Below, in pieces: positions 32,983 to 46,722 of a stretch of 64,000 nucleotides of DNA (position 1 is its first letter; each line of letters opens with the position of its first letter). Source of the stretch: Paramecium tetraurelia (taxonomy: Eukaryota > Ciliophora > Oligohymenophorea > Peniculida > Parameciidae); contig NW_001799008.1 in the NCBI RefSeq assembly GCF_000165425.1, forward strand, positions 62,001 to 126,000. Direction: 5' to 3'. The position numbers were made by a program, and so were the translations under genes. Below the pieces are notes generated by a model. The model was not told the DNA's origin, made no database searches, and saw nothing but the letters and a program-made list of their open reading frames with translations.

Positions 32983-34001
32983 TAGTAAAAATGTTATGTA
33001 TAATTTCTAACATAATCATCAGAATCAGATTCCTGATTATCGAAGTCATCCACAACAAAATGCACCTTTCTCCCTTTCCTAATTTTCTTTTGATGCAAAT
33101 TCTAGAACAACTTTGTCATTAACCCTGGTACTTTAGTTATCTCTCTTTCCAAATCAGAATTTAATTTGTGTATTTTATCAAAATCATCAATAAACATGGA
33201 ATTTGTTTTTTCCAATAACATTGATGAAATGATGTTTGAATGCTTCTCAACAAACTACAATATTTACAAAATATTATTGCTATTCAATTTTGATATTATA
33301 TCTTCTTCACATTTTTGCTTTAAATCAGCTATCAAATATTCATCAGCCAATAACATTAAATCGCAAGTATCCTCAATCTCAACTGGAAACTAAATTATAA
33401 CATTCTCAATACTTCCTTCCAATAGCCGCAGTAGATCCACTGTAACATGACTTTGAATAAATCAGGCTTTTTGCATTCCACCCTTAATACACTCTAATTG
33501 CTCTCAATCATATTCATAGAAAACATTCCATTAAATTTAGGTGATCTACTGGCCAAAATACATTTATGCAAAAGTAAAGGCTATATTTAAATATTGTGTA
33601 CCTGTTCATCATTAATTTAAAGTAGTATGTCGCTATGGGCACCATGATTAAAGAGAGTCTAAAAGGAAGTCTTTAGAGGATTTTAGGCCATCTAAGAAAA
33701 CTCGGTAGTATGTATGACTTTGACTAAACAAGCTGTCATAATACTTGTTTCAGGCTTAAACTAAATTTGAGTATTTTACTCTAATGTCTCTGCCTAAGGA
33801 TTGAAATCTCAACATCTTATAATTAAGATTAGTTATCCCACAAAACTCAAGACTGTATGATAAAAATGTCCTAGGCCTGATGATTGGCAATTTGATTGAA
33901 TTGTTTTTAATCATGATTACTTGATTTTTGGAAATGTTCAATAGATCTTCTCCTGCCTCGAATATAATGTCTAACTATTCTGACCCTTTCTTCTTCAACA
34001 T
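32979..34001 (-). CDS. BTB/POZ domain protein
   Basis: About 319 aa, with introns of 19 nt (33771), 21 nt (33583) and 23 nt (33396). It starts MLKKKGSEQLDIIFEAGEDL. Residues 115-215 form a BTB domain: HGAHSDILLQINDEQPLLLH, KCILASRSPKFNGMFSMNM, VECKKPDLFKVMLQWIYCG and LMLLADEYLIADLKQKCEED. A BACK-like helical stretch follows. BTB proteins commonly dimerise or bind Cullin-3, and no kelch or other partner domain is present. The stop TGA shares ATGA with the start codon of the downstream chaperonin gene. Confidence 0.85.
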
Positions 34002-34086
34002 CCAATATCTATATATATATATATTTCTTTTATAATATTTATGAAAGCTATACGAAACTAATAACACAAACATAAACATAGCATTT

Positions 34087-34658
34087 TCATTCTTATTTTA
34101 CTTTCTTAACAATGAACCCCACATACTCAACTTAATATTTATTACTCTATTTAATCTAAATTTACAATATAAAATTCTAATTACTGCTTCATCAAACAAT
34201 TGTTCAGCCTACTCTTTTTCGTATTCTGGGAAAAGCGATTAAAATCTTTAAACTAGTTTTTCCTTCACCTCATTTAATCGGACTTCTTCCAACTAATTTT
34301 ATTTTATGAATTCATCGATTGACTTTCTCCACCCTTTCCATTCCTCCTTGGGTTCTATTTCTTTCGTAGCTTCTTGCTCCTTCTGCTTTGTAGTGTCCTT
34401 CTATGGCTTCTATGGGTTTTGCTATTATTGAGGCTTTTTGCCCTAAGACTTTGATGAGATTAATACATTGGCATAGGGTCCCCAATACAATTGCTTTTCA
34501 CTCAAACAAGAGACGTGATCAACGTGGTTATCACTGAACATCTTCTTGCAATCAATGCAGATAAGGGAAGGTGGTTTTCTGCATTAGGTTCGTACATGCT
34601 TGTCGACTTGAGGTTTAGTTAGAGTTCGGTCGCAGTGATAACACATAAAAGTCACCAT
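34087..34658 (-). CDS. LYAR-type C2HC zinc-finger protein
   Basis: About 180 aa with a 29-nt intron near 34185. The N-terminal 60 residues are the double LYAR zinc finger: VTFMCYHCDRTLTKPQVDKH, then LICIDCKKMFSDNHVDHVSC, closely following human LYAR (cell growth-regulating nucleolar protein). A Gln/Lys-rich linker leads to a second conserved block, EEWKGWRKSIDEFIKQNQ, matching the LYAR C-terminal region. LYAR acts in nucleolar rRNA processing and transcription. All zinc ligands (Cys/His) are present. Confidence 0.9.
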
Positions 34659-34710
34659 TAATTAAATAGGGAAATAAAATTTATAAATATAATTATCAAT
34701 TATTCTGCCA

Positions 34711-35857
34711 ATGAAAAGTTTCAGGACTGAAGAACCATTGAGTACTAATTCAAAAAATAAGGGATTAACATTTGAAATCGGAAATCAAAGTACAACTAGA
34801 GTACATAAAAAGTTTAATAGCATTAGAAATAACAAAAAATGCCATTTTAATTTAACTCCTTGAATACTGAAGAGTGTGATAATGATACACATAGGAGTCA
34901 ACAGGCCTTTAAAAAATTGAAAAACCTTGAATTCCAAAACGAGTTGTTTATGTTGGAAATGCAACATGGGTAAAGAAGAAAGGAGGCTGAATCAAATAGA
35001 TTGAAGTTTCAATTATCATCAATAAAATCAGACATTGATTTTATGAAAAGTCAATTACAATCCCCAGTCGCAAAGGTTAAACCAAAACGCAGACGATCTT
35101 AATCAATCGACAGTGAATAGTCCTCTAATAGAAATAGCAGTAGCAGTAGTGATAATAGTTATGTCAAATGCCCAATTAAGTTTAAACATTAGGAACCTAT
35201 ATAAAAGGAATAGATCAAAGCAGATAGGTATGAGATACCCACATATATATGTTTAGTTATGAAACAATAGGGAATAGATTTAAGCAGCTGTTTCAAATAA
35301 GTGATGTGAATGATAAGTTGAATTGGATGGTAAAATAATATTTCAATTCTTTCCATTCAATTTAATTAGATTTGTAGAATAATTTATTGCCTCTGTTATT
35401 AGAAAACACATTGAAATTATTGATTGAAATAATAGAGAAACTGAATTCGATAAAATTGGACACTTTGCAATTCAAATCATATGATCCATTTTAAAATGGT
35501 GATAAAAATATTAAGGGATATTCTAGCGATTTAGATATTGAAACCATCAATCAAGAATATTAATTTTAGGGGAACCAAACTCTAACAGATTATTGTTAAA
35601 AGTTCACTGAGTAGAAGAATCAATTTTCTACTCCGCAATATAAATAGCAACAACCGGAATAAAAACAATCAGCCAGATAACTACAAAACATGATGAAATC
35701 AAAGCCTGATTCGAGTTGTCATACTAGCAACAATTAGACTCTGGATAAGAAGGTTAGCATAAGCGAAAGGAGTTAAAAAAAAACTAGTATTAAATTCTAT
35801 ATGGTTATAGCTTAGAAGACTCAGTTAATGCCTAGTTTAAAGAATAGACAAAAGTGA
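34711..35857 (+). CDS. Ser/Lys-rich protein with coiled-coil segments
   Basis: About 365 aa after introns of 20 nt (34798) and 29 nt (35229). It starts MKSFRTEEPLSTNSKNKGLT. A helix near residue 70 (KKLKNLEFQNELFMLEMQHG), a basic Ser-rich patch (KPKRRRSQSIDSEQSSNRN), a middle helical part (LPLLLENTLKLLIEIIEKLN) and a Q/K-rich tail can be seen. The RRRSQS patch looks like a nuclear localisation and phosphorylation site (inference). Family unknown. Confidence 0.65.
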
Positions 35858-36191
35858 AGAGTGAATTTGAATGTTTAATATTACTATAAATGTATATATA
35901 AATAATAATAACGAGGGGAGAAGGGGATATTTATATAATTTTATAAATAATATTTAAGAGAAGGAAAAAAGAAAATATTAAAAAGCCCATTTTAATACAC
36001 ATATCATTGCCATCTCTTGCTTTATGGTTAGTATTATTTAATAAATGAATGTTATCCAACAACAAATAAAGTTTTTCAATATATGATTCATCAATATCTA
36101 TGGTGATTCTAAAAATACAATAGAATATACCTGAAATTGTTGATAGTGATTAAGATGCGAAATGTCATCGTTATTAGTATTATCTTGTTAT
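35858..36191. other. intergenic, no feature seen
   Basis: About 330 bp between convergent genes, AT-rich apart from a short GGGGAGAAGGGG patch near 35,916. No gene or structure identified. Confidence 0.45.
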
Positions 36192-36777
36192 TCAATATTT
36201 ACTATTACTTGCTTTAAATTCTTTCATAACATCTTTCTGAATTTTGAGAATGAACTCACTCATTCTTGGATTCTCCAGTAAAAGTCTCTCCAATAAATCC
36301 TCTCTGTTTTAGAATGCTTGTTTCAAATCTATGACAATCGCCAACTTTTTAGTGGTTGTAAGACTAGCGTAAAATTCCTCCAAAGGCAAACCCATACTAT
36401 ATGTATTCGATGTTTTATAATTCACTTTCTCGATAGCATAAGGTACTGTAATAAAAAAACATATAATAATGAAATCATACATATTTTGTAAGTGCTTAGA
36501 TTTGTATGCAATTTCACTTTGAGTTCCCTCCCCTAGAATTTATACCCATTCAATGTATCCACTGCAATATTGGCTGTAAATTCATCATAATACTCTGCAG
36601 TACATGAGAATTTCACTTCCCCCTCTCGTCTATCAATTTAAATCATTCAAATACTTTGGTGCCCATTCTACCAAAGGTCCAATACTTGATAGCAACTATT
36701 CTACTTCTTCATTTTTGGCCAAACTTTGAATATTGCTTACGTGAATCTGATTTCCTTTTGGTGGCATATATTAATTT
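36192..36777 (-). CDS. RRM protein, CstF-64-like
   Basis: About 175 aa, with introns of 25 nt (36648) and about 35 nt (36447, ending CAG). Residues 8-80 form an RRM: IHVSNIQSLAKNEEVEQLLS (RNP2 region), a shortened middle, then ANIAVDTLNGYKFQGRELKV. The C-terminal block (MGLPLEEFYASL, LLERLLLENPRMSEFILKIQ) resembles the hinge of CstF-64 that binds CstF-77 or symplekin. The RNP1 motif is degenerate (GEVKFSCTA). A role in mRNA 3'-end processing is inferred. The protein lacks the usual Pro/Gly-rich tail. Confidence 0.6.
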
Positions 36778-37027
36778 AATTAATATTAATATTTAGTATT
36801 TAATTAATTGGATCTCCATTTTTTATGTTCTCGCTTCACTTCCCCTGTGAAAAATTACCCCATGAATGAGTAAAATCTTATAACATATTGGATGATAATC
36901 ATTCACTAGACTCTCTCTCATATATAATACAATCAGAATTAACAATTCTATTGGATAAATTACAGGAATTTTGGTGTTCAAATAAACTATTGGATATTGA
37001 AATTTGATAATATATATTGATATCATG

Positions 37028-39330
37028 TCATATCTAGATAAATGTGTGATAATTTTTATGACTGGTTGCCACATAGCATTTCCAATCATCTTTTTTAAGT
37101 GTATAACATTCTTCGCAAAAATAAAAGCCAAAGCAGTTTTCACATTTATAAACACTCCCAGATTTTTCGATTTCGCAACCTTAACACTTATAAGTTTTTT
37201 TTTGAAATTGCTAAACTTCATATATAGGCTCGAAACGATGATCAGCCTTATGTCTTGGTCCATTCAATTCTGTTTAACTTCTGGTGAAGAAACAATTCTA
37301 GCCTATTATTAGATAGCAAGAAAATCAATTACATAAACTAAAATTTGTACATTGCTTGCAAATGAACTAGACACCAAGAATGGGTTTTTGAAAACACCCA
37401 TTGCACTTAGAATCATGACAAGGTATACCTTCAGCAAAGGTAGGCAATTCTATCACTTTGAATTCATGATCCTTATGATTAGGATCTCCAGTTATCAGTA
37501 GATTATCAAAACAAGCCTCACAAAAATCATAATTGTCACAAGTAATGCATTCGAATCTAGCTCCCCAAATGGGATTCTAATCGCAACCATTACATTAATG
37601 ATATTGATGCAATACTTCTTCATCAGCTTTGTTCGCTAAGAAGAACATATCGGTCTAAGTGAGTTCTCCTTCGCTAAATTAGAATCAATAGTGAATATTA
37701 CCTGATCTTTTTATTGTAACAATTCTAACAGATGTCAAAATTGGCTATTTTCTTAGATTTGTATCTACAAATACCAGGTTACAAAGAGATCCCGCAGATG
37801 TTACAGCTTATCTAGACCAACCACTTCTAAAAGGTTTCTCCCAATTGATTTCCAATAGAAAACCATCCAGGTCTTAGATTATGATTTCTAGCAAAGATTT
37901 CTACTTTCTTAGAACCTGGCATCATCATTTCTATGATTTCATATAACTCGATCGGTTTCTAAGATTTATTTCGGATAGAACTAAAGATGACGTTGTTTGA
38001 TATTTTTGAATGATATTCCACATGTTCACCTGGAGGACATTTATAACTATGTAAGTACTATTTTAATACCCAACCAGACATATTTCAAATGAGTGCATAA
38101 AGTAATATCCTGTAGAAAGATAAACGTTATTGCCTTATGGATTCAATTTTACCCACATAATTTGATCAACTATTTCATATCCCCACTTACTAGCCATTTC
38201 AAAAGCAATATTGAGTTGAGTATTGAGGATCCAAAGAAACAGAAATCCTTTCTTACTCAATTTCTCTATTTTAATATCCATAATTTCTTGATTGCTCATA
38301 GTGTTGTAGTCTAGAGAGAATTTGCTATTCGTGAACATAAATGAAGAGTCATTCTATTAACCTCCCTTGATTCTCCAGGGAGGATCCATCAAAACAACTA
38401 AACATCAAATTAATATAATATACCATCAAAGCCACCCACTTTCTCTACTAGGAAATCAATGTTAAAGTATCTTATATCACAATTGATGTAAGATTTAATT
38501 TTCACCTAATTTTGATAGTATTTTTTAATTCTCAATTCCCAACAGTTTCAAATTGCGTTTAGTTTCAAAATCTGTACCATCTTCAGTTAAAATTCTTAAG
38601 GGTTCTTCTTCTAATTTTTGTTCATCTTCCAATAATTTACCCTCGCCTTCTTATCCTGTAGAATTTTCAGGTTGGGCAAATTGTTTCAACTCTGCAGCAG
38701 TCACTGGAATGTCTAAGTTTGAAATAGTTCTTATATTATACCTTCAAATATCTTGACATAAATATTTCTGAATAATTCCTTTACTAAGTTTTCTTACTCG
38801 CTGCCAGAAGATAGGATTTATTTTTATTCATAGGACTTTTTGAAGATTTTGTTGACTCTCTTGAGGATGAGCTTACTTTTGTATTGAGCTTCATCAGAGG
38901 AGTCTTCTAAATCGATATGTTTGTGAGGTCTACGAAACTTTTTGGATTTCTTGGGTTTGATCTTAGGATTGAATTCAGAAGAGTGATCGGATGGGAGAAC
39001 TAATTATTCGCAGGATATTGGTAATTATTTGAGTAAGGTTGGTTCTTGGTTCTGCTACTACTCCTCTCTTGGGGGAGTCTGTAATTCAGCATTCTTCTTT
39101 TTGCGATCTTACTTGAGGTGTGTAATTTTGTGTTGCTGGACTACGGGTATTGGTTGAGTTGCTAAGAATAATAGATCTAATTACGTTGCGTGCCAGTTTG
39201 CTTTCTCTCTCTCTTATTGTACACCAGATTATCAAGATTGATCTACTTTAATCCTGTCTTTTGTTTTTGAACATTTTTTTTATAAGTCGGAGGTCAGTTT
39301 GGCATCGTAAATCTTTTCTTGGTCAGTCAT
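37028..39330 (-). CDS. MT-A70 adenine methyltransferase fused to ZZ zinc fingers
   Basis: About 700 aa with at least seven introns of 23-34 nt. The N-terminal 250 residues are basic and acidic low-complexity ([20 protein letters not shown]). The MT-A70 domain follows: [20 protein letters not shown], catalytic [46 protein letters not shown], and [24 protein letters not shown] is intact, so it should be active on N6 of adenine in RNA or DNA. Without a stop, the chain continues into Cys-rich zinc fingers: [30 protein letters not shown] and [18 protein letters not shown], the ZZ pattern, three or four copies. One frame step near an A6 run at about 38,500 is not explained by an intron. Ciliate relatives (MTA1/AMT family) make 6mA in nuclear DNA. 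Confidence 0.85.
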
Positions 39331-39395
39331 TAATTTTTAATTTTTTTATTCAATCCTCACTTGGAAGCCATTATAAATATTTATAAATAAATTAA

Positions 39396-40185
39396 ATGGA
39401 TTCTGAAGACTATCATTTCAAGTTCCGCATCGTCATTTTAGGTACCATTTTATTGTATGTTAAGGTGAGAAATCAGTTGGAAAATCAACCTTTTTAGATG
39501 GTAAATTAAATCATAAAATTTAAAGTATTGGCAATAACTTTTGGTAAGATAATAGAATAGGAAGCATCAGATGAATTAAATTTGAAGGTATCACTCTGAT
39601 TTAAATAATCAAAGACTGTTGGCTACATGGATGATGACACTCTCTACAAGATAGCCTATTGGGAAATACCTGGGAAGCATCGTAGTCCTGATACCTTCTT
39701 TCGTTTCTGTCTTGGAGCTACAGCAGCCATCTATATGTTCGATGGTAAGTGAAACATTCATATAAATAGTCTCAAAAAGATAAACATTTGAAAAGATAGA
39801 ACATTGGATAACTGAAAATGAGAAAACTGAGATCCCTGTCAAGGTTCTCATTGGAAACAAGATCGATCTCTATGCCAGTAACAAAGGAGGTGTATCAAAG
39901 TCAGAAGCCATCGGCATGGCTCGTAAATACGGGATGGAATATTTTGAAGTTTGGTAAATTATATAAATTAACACTAGTTCCATTGGGGATACTTCAATTG
40001 CCCCAGTTTTTGATTATCTCATCTCCACTATCATAGGGTAGATTCCAAACCCACCCACTCCGTTGTCCTTGATGGGAAAAGGCATCCTGATTGGAAAGAG
40101 ATTACTCAATTCGTCCAAATATCAATTGGTAATGAAAGATTGTTAACAGTAGGCACTTTGTGATATAGCATCACTTTATGAATGA
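39396..40185 (+). CDS. Rab-like small GTPase
   Basis: About 230 aa, with introns of 23 nt (39440, ending AAG), 27 nt (39587, ending AAAG), 25 nt and 24 nt. The P-loop reads ILGEKSVGKSTFLDG, switch II is degenerate (YWEIPGKHRSPD in place of WDTAGQ), the guanine box is LIGNKIDLYASN, and EYFEVCSIG matches the SAK region. It ends with a Cys-containing tail (MKDCQQALCDIASLYE) but not a clean prenylation signal. The loss of the WDTAGQ glutamine suggests altered GTP hydrolysis. It lies 14 bp upstream of the USP gene on the same strand. Confidence 0.8.
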
Positions 40186-40199
40186 TATTAACAATAATT

Positions 40200-43100
40200 A
40201 TGTATTGCGGTTTAAATAACTTGGGTAACACATGTTACATGAAATTCTCTCCTCCAAACTCTCTTTATGACTCGTCAATTTAGAGAGGCTCTTTTTAAGT
40301 GGAAGTATGATGAAAACGAAGCATCCCAAGAGGGAAAGACTGTATTCCGTATCAATTATAGTATCTGTTCGCCAAGATGCAAGAAAGGGCGATGAGAATA
40401 GAGCAGCAGATGCTAGAGGTTTGGTGAGATCTTTTCAATGGGATCCACAAGAATCATTTGCTTAGCATGATGTTTCAGAATTTTGCAGAGTACTGTTTGA
40501 TGCAATCTAATAATCAGATGATTAGGATTTCATCACTCGTCTATATCAATCTTGCTCATAATCCTACGTGCAATGTTTAAAATGCTAATAGGAGAGTGTG
40601 CAGAATGAAATTTTCTTGGATCTTTCACTCACTGTCAAAAGTGACTTTTTAAATGTTTACAACGAGTCACTTGAGAGAGCACTATACTATTATATAAAGC
40701 CTGAGAAATTGGAAGGAGATAACAAATACCTCTGCTAAAATTGCAATGATAAAACCGACGCCAACAAAGGATTTAGATTAAAATCACTATCGGATATATT
40801 CACCATTCAATTAAATCGTTTTGAGTTTGATATGAATACATTCGAGAGAAAGAAGGTCAATGATTATGTTTCCTTCCCCTTTGTTTTAGATATGAACAAC
40901 TTTCTCAAACCATATGATTAAATCCTCATTGAAGATCATCCAGATCTATTAGAAGAAAGAGAGAAATTGAAATAGCAATATGAAAAAGAGAAATTATAAA
41001 GTTGCTTCAGTGATCCCTTGAGAAGAAAGAATAGAAAGCCTTCTCCAGACGAGAGAGAGGCTAGAAGGTCCATTTCAATGACACTCCGCAAATAGTTCCA
41101 CCTGATGATAAAGCCTAATTCAAAAAGTAATTGCTTGAAGCACATTAAGAATTCTAACAAAAGTTTTAAAGTCTAAAATCAAATAATACTTCTCAAACTC
41201 AATTTACTTCTTAAACCATACCAAATAATCCGAATTTAATTTTGACAGCTGATGAAGCCTATGATATTGATAATGATTTTCTATTTGGAGGCAATTTGGA
41301 TGGACTAGGCGATCTAGGAGAAGGCACTGCTGCCAATACAGTCAAGGCTATTAAGGAAGTACAAGGAAGTGTTAAAACTTAGAATTATGAGGAAAAAGAT
41401 ATTCAAGAAAGAATTGAAAATGAATCACACAATTTATCAATTAAATAGAAGATCTAAGAGCTGTTGCAAAATGGACCAAATGTTTACGAATTATATTCAG
41501 TCATGATTCATTCAGGAGGTGCATTAGGAGGACATTATTATGCATATATCAAATCTTTTGAAAATGGAGATTGGTATTGTTTTAATGACTCTACAGTCTC
41601 AAAAATATCATGGAAGACAATCTTATCTATGTTTGGAGACAAATATCCAAAATACAATATGGGAAGTAGTGCTTACTTCTTGATGTATCGAAGAGCTGGT
41701 GAAGAACTAAGCACTTAAAAGCCTGAAATTTAAGAGCATTTGAAAGTAGCATTAGCTAAAGAATTGCAAGAATAGAAAGAAAAAGAGGAGAAGTGGGAAA
41801 GAGAAAAGAAAGAAAGGGAAATGGAATTAAAAATTAGATGTTTCTATAAAAATAACGATGCTGTTATAAAAACAAGGAAAGATACACTTTTGAAGGATTT
41901 CAAATAATTAGTAAGGCAAGAATTGAAAGTATAAGAAGATGACGAGAATACAAGAATAAGATTCTTTAATCATATTGATTCAATTCCTTAAGATACATTT
42001 ACAAATAAGGAGAATGAAATTCTGCAAGGATTATATTTTAATGATTACAAATCTGTACTTTTAGAAACCAAAGCTCCACATGAATAATTCTAGGAGTACG
42101 ATGCTCATTTAATGTTGATAAAACTATGCGTTTGGAGAAATGATATTGAGTCATTGGATGAACATGAATTGAAGCCTAATAAGTTTTTCATAAGGGATGA
42201 TAAAACGGTTGAATAATTTATGGATGCTATAACTCAACGATTAGGAGTACCCAAAGATAAATAAATAATCTTACAGAAGAATTTAATTAATGGAGCCGCC
42301 AATTATTCATTTAGAATGAATTAGTAACATTAATTAGAATACACCCTTTATGATCTTAAAATCGGAAGAAATGTGACATTGTATTTGGAAGAAAAGCAAG
42401 ATGATCCTGATCTTCCATTAAATTGGGATTAAAAATTTGAATGCGAAAAACATAAATGTCGAGTGACTTTTAATGATCCCAGAAAACAATTACTACACTC
42501 AGAAACTCCTGATTATTGTTTTGAATTGTAAATAGATAATAGAAAAACAATGTAAGAGTTGAAAGAGAGAATGAGTGATTTCTTGGGTTTGGATATTGAT
42601 TCATTCATTTGTTAAAAAGAGTAATAGATATGGGGAAGAAATAAAAGATTTGACTACTACAATAAAAAACAATTAAGCCATAGGTCGAGCTGCCTTTTGT
42701 CTAATGATGGGTAAACCTTCCACTAAAGGGACATACAAAATAAAGTTTGGCATCGGAGGTCTTTCTCCAAAATACTCTGATACGATTGAATTTGAATATT
42801 AAGACTTGTTCGAAATGGAAATCAATTCAGAATGGTATGTTCGGGAACTCAAAGAGAAACTTTGTTAAAGATTGGAGGAATAAAAATAAATTGTGTTACA
42901 ACCAAACTTTATGAGATTGAGATACAAACTAAATACAAAACTCAGCTAAATTTATCATAATGATTAAATATTAAAAAATATACGAATCTTTGATAATCAA
43001 ACTATTATTATTGAAAAGTTGGATAAGGAAGATTAAATAAAAGAAAATTAACTATTAGGATATGTGAGATTTTATAATCCAAAAGACTTTACTCTTTCAT

Positions 43101-43713
43101 TTCCTCCTTAAGAGATATTTTTGAATAGCACTGACACTATGCATGATGTATCAACTATTATTTCAAGCATGTTTAATATCAATTAAGATGCAATTGAAGC
43201 AATTAAAATAAATAATATCTTCAGTTTTACAATTACTGATTTAGTGACTGCAAGCTTTGATTGGTAATTACTTAAATTCAACTAAAATGTCGTCAGCAAA
43301 AGTCCATGGTTCCTTTTAAAAGATTCCTATTTCATTATGTATTCTACTATTTTATTATTATTTTAGTGTTCGAGATGCAAGAGAGGTTCCAAAAGATATG
43401 ACTGAATTAAGATAAAAAGTAGATTAGATTCTAGCCAAATCCTCGGATCCTTCTAAAATGCAATAAAAAATACCTCCTTAATCTACAAAACCAAAGGAGA
43501 AGGCGTTGAAAATCACAGTCGTTAAGTATTGAAAGTAGTTATTCTTTTAGGAAATAAGATGAATTAGCAAAATAGGAGGAGTTATAAAAATAATAAGATG
43601 ATCTAAAAGAAGAATAACAACTTAAAGAGGACGAGAAGGAACAGCCACAATAAAAAGATGAGAATTAAGATAATACAAATGAGACTGCTAAAACTGAATA
43701 ATAATAAGATTGA
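40200..43713 (+). CDS. USP47-like ubiquitin-specific protease with frame breaks
   Basis: About 1,100 aa. The Cys box is GLNNLGNTCYM, later blocks are SFQWDPQESFAQHDVSEFCR, LCQNCNDKTDANKGFR and IFTIQLNRFEFDM, and the His box is MIHSGGALGGHYYAYIKS followed by WYCFNDSTVSKI. Ubiquitin-like domains and a C-terminal REVPKD...EKALKI region then follow, as in USP47. Several short introns fit (for example 27 nt at 43353 and 25 nt at 43525). In the first 250 bp of the domain the family sequence is spread over shifted frames at three places: after CYM, at GAGGGAAAGACTG near 40337, and at CAAGAAAGGGC near 40380. No intron explains them. Either indels in the assembly or early decay. Confidence 0.8.
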
Positions 43714-43747
43714 GAGTTCTTTAATACAATATATAGATAAATTTAAT

Positions 43748-45080
43748 TCATATTTCAGTTTATTTAATAATATTAAATTCTTATTCTATTTAGACGTTTG
43801 TGTCTGCTTACTATTCTTTAGACACTACAGTTTGAAAGAAAGGATGCTTTAAAGCATCTTCAACTTTAATTCTCTATTTTGGATGTAAACATAGGAGTTT
43901 TGATAATAAATCTTCTGCATTGTCATCAAAGCCTTCCATGTTTATTATCTATTTCCATTTAATTGGCTTAGTTGCTGTGACTGATGGTAACTTTAAATCG
44001 TATTCTTACATTATTAACAAATAGTACCAAACAAATCGCAAATTTACCTCACTTGTTCAGATCCAAATAAACTTGCTAATTCCAAAATAAAGTTAACATA
44101 GAAAAAATTCTTAGTTGGAACCGGCTTATTTATCATTCTAACATTACTAAATAAATTGTATTTCTTAGTTAAAAATTATAAAAATATAACTCCAACTGCC
44201 CACATGTCCACCTCGTAGGATTGATCCTATTTAAACCTATTTATATATTATACATGATAATGTAGGATGCTTTCTAATGGCATAAAGCTTTCTGTTCCAA
44301 TCTTATTTTATCCAATTTAATCAATAGTTTTCTGAATTTCATTATATAAATTAATCTTCCTTCTAATCTCCTGAACTTCATCTGATTAGGGATTCTTATA
44401 TAAATATTTTCATAAGTTCTTACTTTCTTCGACAAATCCTTTTCCTTTTCAATCAACTTTGCTACAAACGACCTGTCTATCTCGCTGAGACCATAATCAA
44501 TCAAAATTCCTTTACAGGTTTTGGGATTATAAAGAAAGTTGCCAGGTTTCACATCTCGATGGTAGATGCCATTCTATTTCAAAAGATTCAAAGCCTTCAA
44601 TAATTCATAAAGATATTTTCTTATTTGCATCATGTCAAAGTTTGCAAAAAATGTCTTATTAACCTAAAATATGTACTATAAATGGTTTAAAGGTAAAGTA
44701 TTCTATTACAATGTAGATTTTTTGATCCTTCAAAAATAGGTTCACCAACTGAGGCATGTTCTCCTTACCATACACTAATTTTAAAAATCCAATCTCTGCA
44801 AAAATCAACTCTGGAGACACAGTTGAAAAATTAACCTTGATGGCATATTTTTTTGTTTTGTCAACCTGACCCTAATTGAGTCCAAGACTAAGTTTAATGA
44901 TCATTTTTTATACGCTTTGTATACCACTCCATAACCTCCTCTTCCCATCTCCCTTACAACCTTATAATTCTACTTCAGGTAGACCTCCTCATCGATTGAC
45001 TGATCCATATAATAACGATCGTTGGAACAAGGAGTTACTTTGACTTTTGTGCTTGAGGACTTTTTGTTATTTTTTTTCAT
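43748..45080 (-). CDS. Cdc7-like protein kinase
   Basis: About 400 aa, with introns including 26 nt (near 44890), 22 nt (near 44675) and 29 nt (near 44400). It starts MKKNNKKSSSTKVKVTPCSN. Kinase motifs: glycine loop EMGRGGYGVVYKA, KKYAIKV, catalytic loop NGIYHRDVKPGNFLYN, ILIDYGLSEID (DYG in place of DFG), an insert of about 40 residues, then IGTESFMPLESILHYHV and YEVDMWAVGVIFLQFL. The HRDVKPGNFLYN motif and kinase inserts are typical of Cdc7, the DDK that licenses replication origins with Dbf4. DYG is a notable substitution. Convergent with the USP gene by 34 bp. Confidence 0.8.
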
Positions 45081-45099
45081 TAATTATAGAATATATAAA

Positions 45100-46722
45100 T
45101 CATTATTATTTGTCATCCAAACTCATATCCCCTGAGTTTAGATGATAAAATCTAATTTACGACTTTGGTTTGTTCACCAATTATGACAACCCTGCATTAG
45201 TACTCGCAAGATGTGATAATTTATTAATTTCCAAATCTCTATCCTTTATGGCAATTTAGAGTTGATCAACTGCCTTTAGTAGATATTTAATCTTTTCGCT
45301 GTCAGTTATCTTTTGCCCTGGAGAAACACCTTTGATATATTATTGAATTATGTACCTTAAGGCTAAATTTAACTGATCAATACTGATTAAGGCAATTAAC
45401 TAATACTTGATTATTGATGCATTTACTAGGACATCAACTCGTTGTTTTCTTTTAATAAGCGATTCTCTCTTTTTAATTGTTCATTTTCCTTTTTGAACTC
45501 CTCCCTCTCTTTTTGCATTTGTTGACATAAATCTAATTTATACTCAATTTATTTCCTAACATCATCATCGAATCTTATGATATTTCCATTCTCCATCTGC
45601 AATTTCAATTCATTTAGTTCTCTGTTCATGTTTCTTAACGATTCTTATAATACGAAATTCTAAGCTCTCAATTCGCTGACTTGGTTATTCTTTTCAAACA
45701 TAGTCAATTAAGTTTGGTTCATTAGATTCTATTTATGAGTAGCTATCAATAATTCTGCATTTTATAATTGCAATTATAAGGTATTCACTTGATTTTTCAG
45801 TTGATCGGTGATTGATTCATAGTTCATTCTTTCAGCCTTATATTATTCATCATATAATTATTTATAATTTTCAACTTCTTATTTGATTTAATTCTAAATT
45901 ATAATTTATAATTTTTTACAGCAAATTTCGTCTCAGCATCTTCTATAGTATAGCCATGCATGTCACGTAATACGTCGATCTATGCTTCTAACTCTTTTTT
46001 TTCTTGAAGATTCTAATCCAACAAATTCGAATAATTGACTCTAAGTACATCTAAGTCTATTTTCAATAATTCATAAGCATTCTTAATTTCCAACAATTCA
46101 TTTATTTAATCTGATTGATCCTTAACAACCTTCTATAGTTGTTAATACTCATAAATATATTTTAATTTTTCCTCCTTAACAACTCTTAAGGCTTGGTCCA
46201 AATGATAGGTTTATTATAAGCTCTTCTATAATTCTTCAGTTTTATTAATAAATTATTGTTTGCCTGCTTATATTTCTTGATCTTTGATTTCAATAATTTA
46301 ATTAGTTTGCTCTAACTCATTTAAGACTTTATTGAGATTTTGACTAAGTTCCTACGAAATCATTATAAGAAATACTTATTTCTGAAGAGTTAACTTTTGA
46401 ACTTAGAATGCGTATTCTTCTGACTCAATGCTCTTCTATTTTAATCTATCGCATAAGTTATCATATTCTTAATTTAACTAAATATATTTAATGGGCTTAC
46501 AATTGAGTTAGATTGCTCCATTTCTTGTAATTAGTTCTACAAGTCTCTATTATGTTCCTTAAGGACTTCCATTTCTTGTGAGGCTGTTCCAAGAACATCA
46601 GTAAGTTTTTCAACTTCATTAGTAAGTATGTTAACTCTACTATAACACATATTATGAATGTCTGTAGATGTAGAATCATCAAGTCTTGATGTTTTATGTT
46701 GAGGAGTATTGCTTAACTTCAT
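45100..46722 (-). CDS. long coiled-coil protein
   Basis: About 530 aa. It starts MKLSNTPQHKTSRLDDSTST and quickly becomes a continuous heptad coil (RVNILTNEVEKLTDVLGTAS, QEMEVLKEHNRDLQ) rich in L, Q, E, K and N, ending NAGLSQLVNKPKS and MSLDDKQQ. No other domain is visible. Such proteins in ciliates are often basal-body or ciliary, which is inference only. It lies 19 bp upstream of the Cdc7-like gene on the same strand. Confidence 0.7.

Follow-up and report, generated by a model that had tools for sequence, protein, structure and literature searches.

A Paramecium tetraurelia gene of the AMT2/5 type joins an MT-A70 methyltransferase domain to an array of ZZ fingers

The window analysed here is a stretch of 64,000 nucleotides of Paramecium tetraurelia DNA (contig NW_001799008.1, positions 62,001 to 126,000; G000:C55:62001-126000 in the searched genome of 69.07 Mb and 231 contigs). 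A first-pass annotation made from the letters alone described in it an MT-A70 methyltransferase running on into ZZ-type zinc fingers, and held that no system of this architecture had been described. The locus raises the question whether the two kinds of domain belong to one gene, to which family such a gene belongs and what its fingers could bind.

The gene occupies positions 37028 to 39330 of the minus strand, as annotated, with its start ATG at 39330-39328 and its stop TGA at 37030-37028. The model was spliced by hand and was matched by a protein-guided spliced alignment. It consists of seven exons (39330-39185, 39161-38742, 38712-38424, 38397-38070, 38046-37702, 37673-37333 and 37302-37028) separated by six introns of 23 to 30 nt (39184-39162, 38741-38713, 38423-38398, 38069-38047, 37701-37674 and 37332-37303), all six of which were recovered with the paralogue L009 as the alignment query. 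Across the four MT-A70/ZZ genes studied, intron length ranged from 21 to 30 nt. The introns, and two single-base frame shifts discussed below, were absent from the first account of the gene. None of the 16 MT-A70 matches of this genome has a TGA inside it, whereas TAA and TAG are found within such matches, so translation table 6, in which TAA and TAG encode Gln, is taken to be in use.

All parts of the gene described here lie on the minus strand. The N-terminal region of about 260 aa (38491-39330) has a basic cluster of 14 residues and contains both frame shifts; scanning the equivalent part of L009 gave no Pfam match. From the second frame shift to the stop, the spliced sequence is a single frame of 454 aa that holds both kinds of domain. 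The MT-A70 domain (37845-38430) is cut by introns 38423-38398 and 38069-38047 and carries an intact DPPW catalytic motif at 38375-38386. The domain search suggested at first pass, with MT-A70 and ZZ profiles, found both on this one spliced frame: PF05063 (MT-A70) matched residues 24-202 of the 454-aa piece with an E-value of 4.5e-39, and PF00569 (ZZ) matched four stretches with an E-value of 1.5e-23. The same piece had no match in NCBIfam, which is built for prokaryote genes, and no relative in viral contigs, where three pattern matches only were obtained.

Since the introns break the genomic frames, the raw sequence alone would permit two separate genes, one for an MT-A70 protein and one for a ZZ protein, lying head to tail and wrongly joined. 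We consider this extremely improbable and reject it on account of the shared exon at the join: the end of the MT-A70 domain (about 37845) and finger 1 (37811-37707) lie within one exon (38046-37702), with neither a stop nor an intron between them. Moreover, the join is identical at four loci of the genome, and the same architecture is reported from Tetrahymena (PMC8265677). Chance Cys-rich frames are likewise ruled out, by the Pfam E-values and by conservation.

The array had been described as three or four fingers, and this was accurate. When the fingers were scanned singly against the Pfam ZZ cut-off of 21.4 bits, three of the four passed: finger 1 (37707-37811; 27.7 bits, E 2.4e-6), finger 2 (37460-37609; 36.2 bits) and finger 3 (37232-37429, split by intron 37332-37303; 36.2 bits). 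Finger 4 (37040-37192) fell below it with 17.8 bits (E 0.0029). Judged by ligands, three of four are again complete, but they are a different set. Fingers 2, 3 and 4 each have a pair of His and three pairs of Cys; in finger 1 one Cys stands in place of the second pair, and no pair of His lies close by. Score and ligands thus disagree for finger 1, which passes the cut-off with incomplete ligands, and for finger 4, in which the reverse is found.

A Pfam search of the genome for MT-A70 gave 16 matches, which were grouped into 11 genes. The fusion is present in four of them, in the same domain order: the window gene, L009 (on C1), L010 (on C186) and L017 (on C34). Three genes are AMT1-like, namely L012 by its PDB match, L018 by the tree described below and L011 by its likeness to L018 (82-90% over pieces). 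Two are METTL3-like (L014 by PDB match, L013 by near identity to L014) and two are METTL14-like (L015 by PDB match, L016 by the tree). A search with an AMT1-type protein also pointed to a twelfth place, G000:C2:140367-140909, which is AMT1-like and has two in-frame TGA codons; this stretch may be a pseudogene, may contain introns or may reflect another assembly error.

For the N-terminus, the MT-A70 domain and the ZZ array, omega was 0.102, 0.040 and 0.060 respectively between the window gene and L017, and 0.077, 0.005 and 0.061 between L009 and L010; values are given for these two pairs, dS being saturated or above 2 in the other four. These sequence comparisons indicate that purifying selection keeps all parts of the fusion, and the fingers are included because the ZZ values are 0.060 and 0.061. 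The fusion is genuine, as three paralogues in the genome retain it and purifying selection acts on the segments where dS could be measured. Its E-values, its presence in four of four genes of the clade and an omega of 0.04-0.10 for the window copy against L017 set it far above chance. Over 4.9 kb the window is collinear with L017, with an identity of 87.7%. The duplicated block shared with L017 extends over window positions 35479-41904, collinear at 87-88% identity, and parts of 33000-45709 match L009 and L010 in separate pieces at 73-77% identity. Such duplicated blocks are as expected from repeated whole-genome duplication, after which all four copies of the AMT2/5 type were retained. Taken with the genetic code and the short introns, they agree with a Paramecium from the aurelia group.

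The methyltransferase gene adjoins a Ras-type small GTPase gene (39586-40182, plus strand; Pfam Ras, E 1.3e-7). A ubiquitin carboxyl-terminal hydrolase gene lies at 40192-42780 on the plus strand; Pfam UCH matches it in two overlapping frames, and it is split by insertions of 1-2 nt relative to L017.

The frame shifts of the window gene were placed by protein-guided alignment, with L009 as the query, and by DNA alignment to L017. Each is a single extra base, one in an A8 run near 39281 and the other near 38502, and both lie upstream of DPPW. If both were real, this copy could be inactive. The window copy could then be a decaying duplicate, making no full protein while the other copies do the work; the two extra bases fall within the N-terminal coding part, and the window protein differs at sites where the other three copies agree. 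We think this improbable. Omega between the window gene and L017 is low in every segment, as given above, and the neighbouring ubiquitin-protease gene is broken in the window too, with extra insertions of 1-2 nt at no fewer than five places between 40192 and 41059, whereas in L017 an unbroken frame of 735 codons carries the protease up to the locus end and takes in the end of the GTPase gene as well. A single frame shift in the paralogue L010 likewise points to assembly insertion errors. Over the GTPase region it is mostly L017 that carries the extra single bases (39665, 39711 and 39755), thus indels occur in both copies. Because the adjacent protease gene is similarly broken, we read the two frame shifts as probably assembly insertion errors.

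A tree of 12 MT-A70 domains was used to place the gene among the known families. The taxa were the four fusion proteins; L018, L012 and Tetrahymena AMT1; L014 and human METTL3; and L015, L016 and human METTL14. The four fusion proteins were split off by a branch with SH-aLRT/UFBoot support of 99.9/100. L018, L012 and Tetrahymena AMT1 formed an AMT1 clade with the window protein outside it, and the METTL3 group (L014 and human) and the METTL14 group (L015, L016 and human) were each separate from the window protein, so an identity as AMT1, METTL3 or METTL14 is rejected by the tree. The phylogeny first envisaged for this gene was wider: the separation from METTL3, METTL14 and AMT1 stands at 99.9/100, and METTL4 and AMT6/7, like Tetrahymena AMT2/5, lay outside the taxon set to which this separation applies. 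Both METTL14-type proteins, L015 and L016, have DPPW where human METTL14 has EPPL; judging from this motif, the METTL14-type protein, usually an inactive partner, might keep the active-site motif in this ciliate.

Among the best 60 of 68 PDB matches, the structures nearest to the MT-A70 domain are Tetrahymena AMT1/MTA1 (PDB 7f4r and 8xyl; E 7.6e-38), followed by METTL3. In ciliates the maintenance complex has AMT1/MTA1 as its catalytic subunit; this protein shares DPPW with the window protein, which nevertheless falls outside the AMT1 clade; ZZ fingers, furthermore, are described as particular to AMT2/5 (PMC12695648). No protein named AMT2 or AMT5 was among the PDB matches listed (the best 60 of 68, and all 35 of 35 in a second search). 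The window protein has the features of AMT2/5, namely DPPW within an MT-A70 domain, ZZ fingers C-terminal to it in one polypeptide, and a position apart from AMT1, METTL3 and METTL14. Orthology to Tetrahymena AMT2/5 is therefore suggested by architecture together with exclusion from these three groups.

Proteins of this architecture are already in print. A study of 2018 made knock-outs of two Tetrahymena genes with an MTA70 and a ZZ domain, TTHERM_00136470 and TTHERM_00388490 (PMC6245762). According to its account, knock-out of TTHERM_00388490 (TAMT-1) lowered 6mA by 37.8%, and the change after knock-out of TTHERM_00136470 was not significant. Of three probes, a recombinant TAMT-1 protein made up of the catalytic domain and ZZ methylated the GATC one alone, and it had a tenfold preference for single strand; changing DPPW to APPA together with E111A and K183A significantly reduced activity (PMC6245762). 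TTHERM_00136470 is named AMT5 and TTHERM_00388490 AMT2 in PMC8265677, where both are reported to have several C-terminal ZZ fingers and to share a subclade. Across 231 surveyed eukaryotic genomes and transcriptomes, AMT2/5 is listed as one of six MT-A70 families; the C-terminal ZZ is called exceptional to it, and these ZZ domains are described as being of unknown function (PMC12695648). In Loxodes, the two putative DNA methyltransferase homologues reported both resemble Tetrahymena AMT2 (PMC11441545).

Like Tetrahymena AMT2/TAMT-1 and AMT5, the window protein has MT-A70 with several ZZ fingers behind it at the C-terminus, and it comes from a ciliate whose genome also has AMT1-type enzymes. It differs in that Tetrahymena has two named genes and four paralogues are found here, the likeness being one of architecture. 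From the family as described in PMC12695648, Pfam MT-A70 with C-terminal Pfam ZZ, no departure was seen. The supposed novelty of the architecture does not hold, given AMT2/TAMT-1 and AMT5 (PMC6245762, PMC8265677) and the AMT2/5 family (PMC12695648): orthologues with the same fusion, which the first-pass annotation had itself named as decisive against its claim, have been characterised in Tetrahymena. Architecture, family and a function have all been published, and the window gene is an ordinary member.

Very probably, then, the gene encodes a ciliate DNA adenine-N6 methyltransferase of the AMT2/5 type, most likely a de novo enzyme whose ZZ array most likely serves in docking. The window enzyme would carry out SAM-dependent adenine-N6 methylation of DNA; it would act de novo on DNA that is still unmethylated, chiefly during formation of the new macronucleus, after which AMT1 complexes would maintain the 6mA marks. 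The ZZ array would serve for docking to proteins, recruiting the enzyme to chromatin or to its protein partners. A role in 6mA deposition, as proposed at first pass, is plausible for an MT-A70 protein with intact DPPW from a family linked to 6mA in Tetrahymena. It is the Tetrahymena literature that provides both the de novo role and the activity in 6mA formation, and we infer the same function in this species. The de novo role reaches us second-hand, through a 2026 review which assigns to AMT2/AMT5 the de novo deposition of 6mA in the newly formed macronucleus, citing Cheng et al. 2025 (PMC13297926). The gene's family is the one reported to initiate 6mA patterns in ciliates. The docking role of the fingers is our inference as well.

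The first-pass annotation had suggested that the fingers could read histone H3 tails or SUMO. In the ZZ domain of HERC2, the pocket that holds the N-terminus of H3 is formed by D2709, D2728 and D2730; H3 binding is reported to be abolished when D2709 or D2730 is mutated (PMC9001736). Among solved ZZ structures, that of HERC2 (PDB 6ww3 and 6ww4) lies nearest to finger 2 (E about 3e-8). We placed the HERC2 residue numbers by counting along the HERC2 sequence, with the second loop letter as the equivalent of D2728; the pattern was not fitted by finger 1, which stayed outside the count. The three equivalents are N/N/D in finger 2, N/N/S in finger 3 and Q/G/Y in finger 4, alike in the four paralogues, so that the full aspartate triad of the HERC2-type pocket is absent from fingers 2-4 of all four copies. 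The genome has 14 ZZ matches, three of them AMT2/5 copies, and the other 11 served as a comparison set. One was partial and was left out (L041) and one was read by eye (L039); all three Asp are kept in five of the 10 readable ones (L031, L032, L034, L038 and L039). Lack of the full triad is accordingly not unique to the AMT2/5 fingers, five of these 10 being without it too.

A ZZ finger of this protein could still bind the free N-terminus of H3 as HERC2 does and tie methylation to chromatin state. Finger 2 is nearest in PDB to a HERC2 ZZ that was solved with H3 or SUMO1, and it retains the equivalent of D2730, although its D2709 and D2728 positions are Asn. Such reading could even exclude the enzyme from the micronucleus, as Tetrahymena micronuclear H3 is reported to lose its first six residues by clipping in vegetative cells (PMC13198579). 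We hold it unlikely, given the loss of H3 binding in the HERC2 mutants of D2709 or D2730 (PMC9001736) and the incomplete triad of fingers 2-4. The known mechanism lends no support to H3-tail reading, and the proposal is weakened, since the three-aspartate pocket is kept by no complete finger; other binding modes are possible. Tentatively, and with somewhat less than even confidence, we suggest that the array in this lineage no longer reads free N-termini (of H3, or N-terminal Arg) and has come to serve some other interaction; a partner that guides the enzyme to the macronucleus under development would be an example. The basis is that purifying selection acts on the array in two copy pairs, while none of the complete fingers has the full pocket. 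What is added here to the published family is the retention of four fusion copies in one genome and a residue-level doubt about simple H3-tail reading. Both are small additions, and they make it easier to design tests of finger binding.

Elsewhere in the window, a tRNA-Gly (gcc) gene is located at 498-568 on the minus strand.
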